The notes under the pieces: model-generated | Database searches by the model: none | Seen by the model: the letters and a program-made list of their open reading frames with translations, nothing else | What the model was told of the DNA's origin: nothing | Program-made: the position numbers and the translations under genes | Part shown: piece after piece, positions 39,857 to 44,679 of the stretch | How positions within the stretch are numbered: the stretch's first letter is position 1 | Layout: every line of letters begins with the position of its first letter | Assembly: GCA_020851415.1 (NCBI GenBank) | Contig: JADZCU010000004.1 | Span: 1 to 64,000, forward strand | Direction of reading: 5' to 3' | Source of the DNA: Candidatus Peregrinibacteria bacterium | GTDB taxonomy: Bacteria; Patescibacteriota; Gracilibacteria; UBA1369 | Length of the DNA stretch: 64,000 nucleotides

Positions 39857-39906
39857 CTTAGACCTCGTGTTTAAATTAAAAAATATCCTCTACTTATGTA
39901 CACAGC

Positions 39907-39912
39907 TATAAT
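39907..39912 (+). promoter_or_regulatory. putative -10 box TATAAT ahead of ncRNA candidate
   Basis: exact consensus hexamer; no convincing -35. Confidence 0.45.
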
Positions 39913-39917
39913 TTGCA

Positions 39918-40536
39918 AAAATCTGTGGGCGAGTTACAATGGCGTGAAATTCAGATGCAGGAACGAGTCAGCCGATAGGCGCCTTAATCCAGAAAGCTGG
40001 AAGCCCTACGACTCTATCACTTCCCACCGAGAATTTCACTCTAAAACAAAAATACACATAGGGCGGACGCCCCAAACAAAAACAAAGGGAGCGCAAGTTC
40101 CCAATCAAACAAAAATACACAGGGGGAAAAACAAAGAAAGATGGTGAGATCATTTACAATCAGGCTCATATAAACAACCTCTGTAAAGATCGATAGGAGA
40201 GCTAAGTCGCAATTCTGGAACCCTCATCTGGTATTGCACCCTAGAAGGCTTGGCTCTCCCTCAATCTCTGCTCGGTGGTGGCTCCACTTTGACCAAGTGA
40301 TGGCCGATTACAGCTTCCTGGTGTTTCTTGTTATCCTTCGGGGTCCTGAAGCACACCAACAGGTGGTCCGTGGCTGGACTGGAAATAATAAGCCAAAACT
40401 CTGCAAAGATTTCGGTCGGTCAACCGTTAAAACAAAATTCCCAAAACAAAAACCTTGAGTCCTCATTTATTTTTTATCTTGAGGTACCCATAAGGATCGG
40501 AATTTAAGTCAGCCCCGCGAAAGCGGGGCTTTTCTT
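39918..40536 (+). ncRNA. large structured noncoding RNA candidate of unknown class
   Basis: no credible ORF; helices GTGAAATTC/GAATTTCAC (39944/40031), GAGTC/GACTC, CCAG-AAAG-CTGG, GGGAGC-GCAA-GTTCCC, TTTACA/TGTAAA, GGAGAGCTAAG/CTTGGCTCTCC (40196/40249), CACTT-AAGTG, CC-UUCG-GG; ends in intrinsic terminator. Confidence 0.75.
40511..40536 (+). terminator. intrinsic terminator AGCCCCGC-GAAA-GCGGGGCT-TTTCTT
   Basis: 8-bp GC stem, GAAA loop, T tract on + strand only. Confidence 0.92.
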
Positions 40537-40657
40537 ATATATGGCTTTTGTCAGAGTGCTTTTAAACAAATATTTACAGCAGTTGGGGCGTAAAAGTCGT
40601 TGATTTTTGTCATTTTAATTCATATAATCGGGCGGCATTTTTAATATTTTTTCTGTT

Positions 40658-41170
40658 ATGAGTGGAATTGATAATCGTGAACCTGAGGTGGCAATTCGTC
40701 AGACCGAAGGTGAAAAATGGTTTTCAGGTACAGTAGAATCGGCCATTTCTAACGCTCTTTTGGTTCGTTTGCATGATACACAAAAGGATATTTGGATTGT
40801 TGTAAACGGTCTTACCGAACTTCCCACAAAACCAAATCCGTTAAAGAAAATCAACCCCGCTGAAGTTCCGACTGTTCGTGTTATGCCACGAACTTTGGAT
40901 GAAGATGGTCAAAAAAAGACTGTTGAGTTTGCGGTTAGTGATAGATATTTAAGTGTGATTGCCGCAGCGGAGAAGGAAACTATTCATAGGTTTTATGCCG
41001 CTTTGGAAAAAGGACAAGATCCGGCAATGATTGAACCTGCCGTACCGGTGGTTCATGCGGCAAAGTATGCCAATAATCGTGCTGAGCTTGAAATATCTCT
41101 TACAGATACAGATTTATCCGACGCCGGTCCTTCGTCAGGTGTTCGTGAACACATGGCAAAGACAGCTTAA
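40658..41170 (+). CDS. hypothetical protein
   Basis: ORF 170 aa followed by terminator. Confidence 0.7.
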   Translation: MSGIDNREPEVAIRQTEGEKWFSGTVESAISNALLVRLHDTQKDIWIVVNGLTELPTKPNPLKKINPAEVPTVRVMPRTLDEDGQKKTVEFAVSDRYLSVIAAAEKETIHRFYAALEKGQDPAMIEPAVPVVHAAKYANNRAELEISLTDTDLSDAGPSSGVREHMAKTA

Positions 41171-41242: not shown

Positions 41243-43576
41243 TTATTCAGCATCGCTTTCCAGGTGATAGAAGCCGCTGATGATTTTTGTGGCTTCAGCA
41301 CGTGTGAGGTTGCGTGTAGGTTCAAATGTGATTGGGGTTACACCGCTTACCAGGTTGTAGTAGCGAGCTGCTCTTACCGCTCCGAAGAACCAGTCTGATG
41401 GTTTTACATCTAAGAATGAGTATTCTGAATATGTTGCATCTACGCTCTTCATTTTTGAACTCATGTTGAAGAGGATTTGTACTGCTTCAGCGCGGGCTAT
41501 AGAAGCATTTGGACGGAAGGTTTTGTCGTCGAAGCCTTTTACCAGATTGTTGGCGGCAGCCTGGTCTACGATTGGTGCAAACCAGTCGTTGGAATAATCT
41601 ATATCCGTGAAGCGATCTTCAAACTGCTGAGAATCGTAAGCGTAGTAGTTGCCGGCGAGTTCAGAGGCTTTGAGTGCCATCTTGGTGAACTCTGCTCGTG
41701 TCACATCTCTTTCAGGATGGAAGCAACCGTCTTCATAACCCTTTACGACTTCCATACCACTTAAATCAGAAACGTAAATCCAGAACCAGTCTGTATAATA
41801 AACATCACAGAAGTTTGCGGTTGGAGCGAAAGGAGATTCAGGTATTTCGTAGTCATAATACTGACCCTGTTCTTTGAACCACTCTGCAGCGGTTTCGAAA
41901 GTTTTTGCCAATCCTTCAACATCAACATTCATGTTCATTGTTGCCCAGACGGTATCACTGTCCGCAAATGACATCCATGAAATGTCTTTAAATGGAGCCA
42001 TGAAATCGTTGTAACCAGTTACTGCGTCTTCAGGTGCACCCAGGTCTTGCATAGCCATAGTTACGTAGTCGTTGAGTGTTTTGACATCGAAGTAACCAAT
42101 TTCTGCTACTGGCTGATTCAGTATTGGGAATGCTGCTTCGAAAGTGCTGTTATCTTTTAAGCTGTGATTTAACATGTTGCCCAAACTTGGGAGTGTAGAG
42201 ATAACCATTGTTCCATCAATAGTTGTCGTCATGTAGAGAGTGATAGTAACCTGGTCGTCACCTACAAGATCCATTATGGAATCACCTTCCGCACGGAGAA
42301 CTGTGCCGAAGTTAAAGGTGTTTTTGTAGAATTTTGAGCCATTCATGTCCACGATTTCGCTGTTGAAAAAGTCTACACCGGCCTCTGTTTCCACTGGTGC
42401 CATGATCTTTTTTAAGTATTCATTTAATTTTTCTACCGTAGCCGCGTTGGCATATTTATTACTGGCAACATCCACCATCCATGTTACTGCCGGTATCAGG
42501 CGATCTGTTTTGTGGACAGTGAACATTTGCTGATTTTTCATGAGACTTAAGATTTCTTTGTCGAAGTCGATGTTTGAATCTGCCTTGAACTCATTTTTCC
42601 AGGCAATGTAATCTTCGTCGGCAAACATGTCGCCATAGAGAAGAACTGCATCTGTCATCCATGAATCGGTGAGGTTCACTTCTCCATACATCATCAATCC
42701 TGTACCGGAGATTTTTTCCCAGAGTTTTGGTACGAAATTATGTTTGTCGAAACTCATGTTGAGCTCTTTGAGTTGAGCATCATCACCTTCAATGGCTATG
42801 TTCATGGTGAAGCCGGTGCTGTTTTGACTTACCCAAACTCCTTCGCCTTCCATACTGCTGATGACGTCTTTGTTGAAGTTGGCAAACTGAGGGAATACAT
42901 CGCCCAACTCTGCAAGCGCATCACCGATTTGATCACCCATTTCCGCAGGATTTACATACATTGAAAAGAATGCTGCATCGTTGGCATGCGTCATAATATC
43001 CATATAGTTGCTGTAGTTGGCGAGGGCATCATTTTTGGTGCCTTTATAACGATCAACGACTTCCATAGCGTTTTCTTTGTTGCTGGTCATGATGAATAGT
43101 CCACCAATATGGACTACGACTGTATCGTTATCTCCTACATAAAGAGTTACACCATTATATGTTTCTTCGGTGATAGTCATTTCTGATTTTGCTTTTTCGT
43201 AGAGGGAAAGAAAGCCTTCTTCGGTTACGCGAACTCCCATGTACATTTCTGGGTCTTTTAAAATGCCTTCTTCGCTTTCAATTTCATTTGGCATATCCAT
43301 ACCGTAGACCAGACGGTTGTTATCTAAAATGACATCAATCAGCGCCATGTCGCTTTCGCTGCTGGTGTTTTCGGCGGTCATGGACTGTTTAATCAGGTCT
43401 TTGAGTTGAACTTCAAAGGGATTCTTAACGGTTGTGTCGAGTGTGTATACTGCGTCAATGTTGGCCGGAAGCAGTTGTTCCATGGCAATGTTTTCTGATG
43501 CTGCCATTGAAATTGAAGATGCGCCAAGCACTCCAATACCTGTGGCAACCCCCAGAATTTTTCGTGAGAGCTTCAT
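41243..43576 (-). CDS. secreted DUF3352-like protein with C-terminal SLH domains
   Basis: start MKLSRKILGVATGIGVLGASSISMAA; three SLH repeats at C-terminus (GCFHPERDVTRAEFTKMAL; KTFRPNASIARAEAVQILF; ITFEPTRNLTRAEATKIIS). Confidence 0.85.
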   Translation of the reverse strand: MKLSRKILGVATGIGVLGASSISMAASENIAMEQLLPANIDAVYTLDTTVKNPFEVQLKDLIKQSMTAENTSSESDMALIDVILDNNRLVYGMDMPNEIESEEGILKDPEMYMGVRVTEEGFLSLYEKAKSEMTITEETYNGVTLYVGDNDTVVVHIGGLFIMTSNKENAMEVVDRYKGTKNDALANYSNYMDIMTHANDAAFFSMYVNPAEMGDQIGDALAELGDVFPQFANFNKDVISSMEGEGVWVSQNSTGFTMNIAIEGDDAQLKELNMSFDKHNFVPKLWEKISGTGLMMYGEVNLTDSWMTDAVLLYGDMFADEDYIAWKNEFKADSNIDFDKEILSLMKNQQMFTVHKTDRLIPAVTWMVDVASNKYANAATVEKLNEYLKKIMAPVETEAGVDFFNSEIVDMNGSKFYKNTFNFGTVLRAEGDSIMDLVGDDQVTITLYMTTTIDGTMVISTLPSLGNMLNHSLKDNSTFEAAFPILNQPVAEIGYFDVKTLNDYVTMAMQDLGAPEDAVTGYNDFMAPFKDISWMSFADSDTVWATMNMNVDVEGLAKTFETAAEWFKEQGQYYDYEIPESPFAPTANFCDVYYTDWFWIYVSDLSGMEVVKGYEDGCFHPERDVTRAEFTKMALKASELAGNYYAYDSQQFEDRFTDIDYSNDWFAPIVDQAAANNLVKGFDDKTFRPNASIARAEAVQILFNMSSKMKSVDATYSEYSFLDVKPSDWFFGAVRAARYYNLVSGVTPITFEPTRNLTRAEATKIISGFYHLESDAE

Positions 43577-43590
43577 AGAAATGGTTATGA

Positions 43591-44679
43591 TTAAAGAAGT
43601 TTGATGAATTGATCGAAGAGATTTTCTGTGTCCACCGGCCCGGGGCATGCTTCCGGGTGGAACTGCACAGCCATAAATGGAAGTTTTTTGTGTTTGATGC
43701 CTTCTACCGTTCCGTCGTTGGCATGCTCGAACCATACTTCCCAGTCTTTTGGCAGAGTTTTGCGGTCTATGGCGAATCCATGATTTTGCGAAGTCATGGA
43801 GCAATTTTCGTTTTCAGTGTTGATGCAGGGTTGATTTTGGGAGCGGTGGCCGTATTTTAGTTTGAACGTTTTTGCTCCGGCAGCCAGACCCATTAACTGG
43901 TTTCCCAAACAGATACCAAATGTCGGGATTTTGAGAGCCAGACATTTTTTGATGATATTTACCGTTTCGGTTAAAAGTGCCGGGTTACCCGGTCCGTTGG
44001 AAAGAAATACGCCGTCAAATTTTTCGCCTCCCGCGATGAAATCGTAGTTCCATGGTACGCGTATGAGTGTTATCCCGCGATCCAGGAAATGTCTGAGTGT
44101 GTTGTTTTTTACTCCGCAATCCACCACTACTATTGTTTTTTTTGCGTTTCCTTTGGTTGTTTTTGCCGGTTTGTAGATTTTTACTTCTTTGGGACTGACT
44201 TCGGGAATAATATTTTGGGCGTTTGGATCGAAGTATGGAACATCTTTACTATCGACAATTATTTTACCCGGTTGCGAACCTTTTTCACGAAGATGTTTTG
44301 TGAGCGCACGAGTGTCTATGCCCGTAATTCCCGGTACATCCCATTCTTTCAAGAAATCACCAAGGCTTTGTTTGGCGTGCCAGTGACTGAAGTTTTCTGA
44401 ATATTCATTGACGATAATTCCTTTTACATGGACTCTTTCGCTTTCAAAAAAATCGTTGAAGTCATGTTCTTTTTTAGTTTGTGGCGGAACGCCATAGTTG
44501 CCGACAAGAGGAACGGTGAAAGTCAGTAATTGACCATGAAAAGAAGGATCGGTGAGACTTTGTGGGTACCCAACCATTCCTGTTGAAAAGACAACTTCAC
44601 CAGCGCTGGATTTTTCTGCCCCGAAAATATATCCATCAAAGCTTGTGCCGTCTTTTAAAACCAACTTGCCTTTTTTCAT
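43591..44679 (-). CDS. carA: carbamoyl-phosphate synthase small subunit
   Basis: LVLKDGTSFDGYIFGAEKSSAGEVVFSTGMVGYPQSLTDPSFHGQLLTFTVPLVGNYG; FGICLGNQLMGLAAGAKTFKLKYGHRSQNQP. Confidence 0.97.
   Translation of the reverse strand: MKKGKLVLKDGTSFDGYIFGAEKSSAGEVVFSTGMVGYPQSLTDPSFHGQLLTFTVPLVGNYGVPPQTKKEHDFNDFFESERVHVKGIIVNEYSENFSHWHAKQSLGDFLKEWDVPGITGIDTRALTKHLREKGSQPGKIIVDSKDVPYFDPNAQNIIPEVSPKEVKIYKPAKTTKGNAKKTIVVVDCGVKNNTLRHFLDRGITLIRVPWNYDFIAGGEKFDGVFLSNGPGNPALLTETVNIIKKCLALKIPTFGICLGNQLMGLAAGAKTFKLKYGHRSQNQPCINTENENCSMTSQNHGFAIDRKTLPKDWEVWFEHANDGTVEGIKHKKLPFMAVQFHPEACPGPVDTENLFDQFIKLL

Follow-up and report, generated by a model that had tools for sequence, protein, structure and literature searches.

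Does the long interval between dinG (- strand) and the + strand gene starting at position 40658 contain a gene of its own and, if so, of what kind? The interval lies in a 64,000-nt stretch of the draft genome of an uncultured, ultra-small Candidatus Peregrinibacteria bacterium (henceforth referred to as the window), and the original prediction held that it encodes a free-standing, structured noncoding RNA (ncRNA) of an undescribed class. The region had been described as devoid of a credible open reading frame (ORF), and this was borne out: the longest + strand ORF across it is 83 aa, and the sense ORFs of 70 full-length relatives have a mean length of 49.7 aa compared to 47.3 aa in shuffled sequences. 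A coding signal is therefore absent, and a hidden ORF was rejected since the sense ORFs are no longer than expected by chance. The predicted promoter (39912-39940, + strand), by its sequence of the sigma-70 type, comprises a -35 element TTTGCA (39912-39917), a 17-nt spacer and a -10 element TACAAT (39935-39940), with 9 of 12 positions matching. In the relatives the promoter occupies the identical position relative to the 5' hairpin, and a best promoter score of at least 10/12 was found in 60 of 98 relatives compared to about 8 expected. Transcription in the family is expected to start at the G of a conserved TGAW motif a few nucleotides past the -10 element, which in the window is position 39946, and the 5' hairpin begins near this point. 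A TATAAT box at 39907-39912 had been proposed as the start; it was rejected in favour of the conserved -10 element at 39935 and, because alignment with the relatives places the start near 39946, the predicted transcript is about 590 nt and not the ~640 nt first suggested. The strong + strand terminator was, as predicted, located by a terminator scan as AGCCCCGCGAAAGCGGGGCU plus a T-run at 40511-40536 (hairpin part, 40511-40530), and a terminator within 260 nt downstream is present in 76 of 100 relatives (5-13 in shuffled and 12-24 in random sequences). Overall, positions 39946-40536 (+ strand, ~590 nt, its ends set by the conserved promoter with TGAW and by the terminator) are predicted to form an RNA gene that stands alone, with a promoter and terminator of its own, here copy A of two paralogs; the related RNAs measure 315-615 nt.

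Comparison with Rfam and a covariation test on relatives had been proposed as checks of the class assignment. In a cmscan of the window with 4227 families, which included OLE, GOLLD, ROOL, raiA and introns, no family reached its gathering threshold over the RNA, and the sole match at this threshold in the window was a tRNA. At E<=10 no match near a family cut-off was obtained over the region, the lax matches being terminator or eukaryotic-family noise, and no Rfam family recurred over the core in 13 relatives. The SRP RNA model (RF00169) was unmatched in the window, the models of RNase P RNA (RF00010) and tmRNA (RF00023) were unmatched at the RNA locus, and ARAGORN found only a tRNA-Arg in the window. 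The original prediction had seen neither an RNase P nor a tmRNA signature. An rnpB gene lies on another contig of the source genome (G000:C50:78382-78747, 185.7 bits), and most relatives that carry the RNA have a separate tmRNA. We considered whether the RNA could nevertheless have diverged from one of the universal RNAs (RNase P RNA, tmRNA or 6S RNA): the source assembly (95% complete) contains no tmRNA over the cut-off even though smpB, which was found in 23 of 26 genomes, is present, and the core pseudoknot described below resembles that of tmRNA, being likewise compact, of the H type and provided with an A-rich loop. However, at least seven relatives (G001, G003, G005, G006, G007, G009 and G011) carry the new RNA together with a normal tmRNA elsewhere, RNase P RNA and a 6S candidate lie elsewhere in the source genome, and the RNA has neither tRNA-like ends nor a tRNA-like domain, and this origin is therefore highly improbable. 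6S RNA is likewise a stand-alone ncRNA gene, which in some bacteria exists as a pair of paralogs (6S-1 and 6S-2), but it is one long hairpin of ~185 nt, whereas the fold at the RNA locus is multi-domain and pseudoknotted, and the best place for RF00013 was on another contig. RNase P RNA, tmRNA and 6S RNA as the identity of the RNA were thus rejected on the basis of the Rfam scans and of the separate copies elsewhere in the genome or in relatives. The 6S-like RNA of the source genome (G000:C62:5324-5481) scores 45.5 bits, just under the Rfam cut-off of 46.4, and is probably a divergent 6S RNA of the lineage. Such an RNA is undescribed in the open-licence papers that were searched. Together with the strong covariation described below, the empty Rfam scans uphold the assignment to an undescribed class, and the locus almost certainly represents a real, new and free-standing class of ncRNA.

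The distribution of the RNA was assessed in draft metagenome-assembled genomes of the order (Candidatus Peregrinibacteria/Peribacteria/Gracilibacteria) and beyond. A search at the level of blastn returned family matches, mostly over the 3' half. A first covariance model, built from 11 aligned sequences over a 163-nt core, matched 45 of the 89 genomes of the order, and retrained models raised this number to 71 (50 of 62 in the good-quality subset) and matched 80 of the 353 genomes of the class, a few sister families included. The known copies number ~105, often two per genome, and the second copy of the source genome lies at G000:C44:62399-62556. Genome-wide search found nothing in family f13, yet two of its 8 genomes carry divergent copies exactly at dinG, with E-values of 3e-7 and 1e-3 that are, owing to a shortened calibration, rough. 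Among 380 genomes drawn from the phylum, one marginal match lay outside the class (G418, a similarly rough E of 4.5e-4); since this is about the number expected by chance, spread across the whole phylum was rejected. Pattern matches outside Patescibacteria (Geothrix, Alistipes and others) were dismissed as chance, as the core model scored the pattern-selected loci at no more than 18.8 bits. A 90-bit copy is present on a contig titled Bacteroidetes bacterium (L142, JAJRSV010000182.1); because dinG and carA flank it, as they do the A copies of Peregrinibacteria, this contig is probably mis-binned.

The genes adjoining the RNA fall into two sets. The labelled loci comprise 32 in context A, which adjoins dinG and carA, and 36 in context B, which adjoins purN, serine dehydratase (sdaA/B) or the F420-ligase-like cofE, mscS and aroE, and none belongs to both. 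A tree of the core sequences requires a single switch between A and B, compared to at least 16 with shuffled labels, which indicates that A and B are ancient paralogs; as context was unused in model building, its agreement with the tree also confirms the weak matches. The copies from beyond the order cluster with B, among them L190, which adjoins purN and cofE; we infer that B is ancestral and that an early duplication within the order gave rise to A. In two genomes (L098, G025:C2; L099, G036:C1) two copies lie ~2.7 kb apart beside dinG and carA, a local duplication of A. In G001 (L008, G001:C4) and G006 (L007), a stretch ~300-400 nt upstream of the RNA begins with a promoter-like sequence, carries a 5' hairpin (GAAGCTC...) and linkers of the AAACAAAAACAAA type and ends in a terminator-like sequence; it may be another RNA gene in tandem, one that escapes the core models. 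No copies were found in phage, plasmid or viral collections, and this, together with the two fixed syntenic sites, speaks against an RNA of phages or mobile elements.

Gene order also bears on whether the RNA could be a 5' leader, namely a riboswitch or attenuator of a neighbouring gene. A long structured RNA that ends in a terminator, followed by a + strand gene at 40658, would suit such a role. However, in nearly all labelled loci dinG, carA, cofE, sdaA/B, purN and mscS, the nearest conserved genes to either side, are encoded on the other strand; the RNA is divergent from one and convergent with the other and hence does not serve them as a leader in cis. The gene at 40658, in turn, has a promoter-like site of its own (40600-40628) and is outside the 25 most recurrent neighbour clusters. 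The leader or riboswitch reading, which gene order contradicts, was therefore set aside as having a very small probability.

A single-sequence fold of the window RNA is better than that of shuffled sequences (z = -4.1), although the above-chance signal comes from homologues and covariation rather than from the fold score. Helices that had been found by hand were recovered at their places, namely GTGAAATTC/GAATTTCAC (39944-40039), GGAGAGCUAAG/CUUGGCUCUCC (40196/40249), CACUU/AAGUG (40285/40295) and a UUCG loop near 40336. In an alignment of 50 sequences, compensatory changes occur in 33 of 38 core pairs, 89% of cells are paired (68% when shuffled, 32-41% when slid) and the covariation score is 0.53 compared to 0.20 when shuffled; these pair counts lean toward the structure, because the alignment was fitted to it and models R2 and R3 were trained in this way. 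Alignment A1, by contrast, was made with MAFFT only from 10 distinct sequences and used no structure; here 88% of cells are paired (77% shuffled, 27-41% slid) and the covariation score is 0.43 compared to 0.22, with none of 500 shuffles reaching the observed value. Relatedness alone can beat shuffles, but the slid controls retain relatedness and yet fail. The long helix P2, the arms of the core and the first stem of the pseudoknot are shared by the consensus folds of two separate sets of complete RNAs. Overall, the comparison of sequences supports selection on base pairing.

The conserved core (40269-40426, + strand; models R1-R3, 100.5 bits with R3) is a junction that is closed by UGCU/GGCA and encloses a hairpin, a long arm and a pseudoknot. 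In the closing helix (40269-40405, + strand) the UGCU strand from 40269 pairs with the AACUCUGCA strand that runs to 40405; compensatory changes are present, and this downstream partner of UGCU scores 11.9 compared to 9.3 (sd 0.4) for permuted partners. The core hairpin (40280-40305, + strand), whose loop is UGACC at 40290-40294, covaries at all 9 pairs. The long arm (40316-40364, + strand), CCUGGUG.../...CACACCAACAGG with a UUCG-type tip, has compensatory changes in 9 of the 11 pairs of its two helices. It is followed by an H-type pseudoknot with an A-rich connecting loop (40365-40395, + strand), in which stem S1 (GGUCC/GGACU, 40365-40380) shows compensatory changes and stem S2 (UGGC at 40371-40374 with GCCA at 40392-40395) varies across the class as UGGC/GCCA, GGUG/CACC, UUGG/CCAA, UGGA/UCCA, CGGA/UCCG and GGUU/AACC. 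The pseudoknot is detectable in 88 of 101 cores compared to 20-36 in shuffled sequences. An architecture of this kind raises the question of catalysis: the large size of the RNA, its multi-helix junction, the invariant nucleotides of the pseudoknot and A-rich loop and the probable kissing contact would all be usual in a catalytic RNA. However, the flanks imply no cleavage or splicing product, and the intron and RNase P models are unmatched, which makes an unrecognised ribozyme quite improbable.

The UGACC loop of the core hairpin may kiss GGUCA at 40418-40422. In family f1 this contact is 94% paired with covariation, whereas class-wide the signal is modest (21 of 58 compared to 13 permuted), and the covariation fits a contact in cis or in trans alike, so that it does not separate an oligomer from a monomer contact. 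We considered whether the RNA could be a conformational switch or a homo-oligomer, in which the UGCU strand of the core would alternate between GGCA downstream and an AGCA-type upstream strand that lengthens P2, and the loops would kiss in cis or in trans. In ten copies of family f14 both of these mutually exclusive helices are ~91% paired, well above slid controls, and the upstream partner scores weakly above permuted ones (12.5 compared to 11.6, sd 0.45); homo-oligomers are formed by GOLLD, ROOL and OLE, according to PMC12286853. Yet across all of context A the upstream pairing scores no better than permuted partners (10.8 compared to 10.5), and in some B copies it is broken. A switch or oligomer of this kind is accordingly doubtful, and strand exchange by UGCU is a lead only, with the downstream partner firm and the upstream one possible.

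Outside the core, the 5' domain (39944-40045, + strand) is recognised from sequence and fold as the GTGAAATTC/GAATTTCAC hairpin with nested helices, whereas in most relatives its place is taken by a short 5' hairpin alone, such as GATTTC/GAAATC. Single-stranded A-rich linkers of the AAACAAAAACAAA type lie between small hairpins at 40044-40139 (+ strand), and AAAYAAAAAYAAA is present in 60 of 70 full-length relatives compared to 0-1 in shuffled sequences. In the long helix P2 (40196-40259, + strand), GGAGAGCUAAG at 40196-40206 pairs with CUUGGCUCUCC at 40249-40259, and in two sets of relatives the helix that corresponds to it covaries. The element CCCUAGAA (40239-40246), which precedes the 3' strand of P2, is conserved in family f1; in the context-A copies of family f14 (e.g. 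L087, L091 and L098) a near-invariant GCCCUAGAAAAGC directly follows the 5' hairpin, and CCCUAGAA is similar to it. The predicted 3' domain (40436-40505, + strand) consists of an AAAUUCC/GGAAUUU helix that closes around a hairpin ending in AUAAGG; it is kept in the A copies of family f1, and in B copies the equivalent 3' hairpin, with UGAUAG, covaries.

The linkers are relevant to a further alternative, that of a trans-acting regulatory RNA, either a 6S-like mimic or a base-pairing small RNA, and not a particle scaffold. The A-rich AAACAAAAACAAA linkers resemble motifs bound by the distal face of Hfq, the gene is free-standing with a strong promoter and terminator, and the two paralogs recall 6S-1 and 6S-2. 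However, Hfq (PF17209) is absent from all 31 of the 31 genomes searched, which rules out an Hfq role for the linkers, a separate 6S-like RNA just under the Rfam cut-off lies elsewhere in the genome, and the conserved positions are paired and pseudoknotted and provide no exposed seed. We consider a regulator rather unlikely.

On balance, it is probable that the locus belongs to a new class of trans-acting ncRNA of the Peregrinibacteria/Gracilibacteria lineage, often present as two paralogs, that serves as a scaffold of a ribonucleoprotein or RNA-only particle and would in this be comparable to OLE RNA, to which it is unrelated. The promoter would produce an RNA of 320-615 nt, in which the core (the UGCU/GGCA junction, hairpin, long arm and compact A-rich pseudoknot) would be the functional module and the 5' and 3' domains would be tethered to it by unpaired A-rich linkers, and paralogs A and B would serve parallel roles. 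The scaffold role is proposed from architecture and by analogy with known RNAs, and, set against a ribozyme or regulator, a particle scaffold appears about as likely as not; no partner protein was found for the RNA. A bolder proposal, which we regard as unlikely, is a two-state or self-assembling RNA machine whose closing strand swaps two conserved partners and whose loops kiss, with an early duplication in one order having produced two non-redundant RNAs at fixed loci and the RNA being ancestral to part of a Patescibacteria class; if true, reduced-genome bacteria would hold an important RNA particle unlike any known.

Large ornate bacterial RNAs have precedents as a general idea, although as an RNA class the present one is new. 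GOLLD and ROOL share the large ornate character but are often borne by phages or plasmids, whereas the new RNA, which matches neither in Rfam, is chromosomal with fixed synteny and absent from the viral, phage and plasmid collections. Both form homo-oligomers according to PMC12286853. OLE, as portrayed in PMC9723947 and PMC11332333, is an ornate, stand-alone bacterial RNA of ~600 nt that is lineage-restricted and whose biochemical role is unproven, and the new RNA resembles it in size, ornate fold, stand-alone gene and restriction to certain lineages. In contrast to OLE, which is found in Bacillota and whose Rfam model is unmatched, the new RNA occurs in Patescibacteria and has two paralogs, other gene neighbours and a pseudoknot core of its own. 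The raiA-motif RNA (ModT), a conserved structured bacterial RNA according to PMC11706538, belongs to different phyla, and the new RNA again has no Rfam match.

Large structured RNAs that are kept across an order are rare, and the roles of RNase P RNA, tmRNA and SRP RNA, once found, proved central to the cell. That bacteria with reduced genomes keep this RNA, often as two diverged copies, suggests that it probably does something hard to lose. It may have escaped notice, as the lineage is uncultured and lacks representation in libraries of RNA families. With the covariance models and the ~105 copies, the RNA can now be tested directly.

Two protein-coding genes follow the RNA in the window. The + strand gene at 40658-41170, which the promoter-like site mentioned above (40600-40628) precedes, encodes a 170-aa protein that has no Pfam match. 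The - strand gene at 41243-43804 encodes a protein of 853 aa that contains a DUF3352 region as well as three SLH domains and is likely to be at the cell surface; in some relatives (L002 and L005), related genes likewise follow the RNA on its downstream side.
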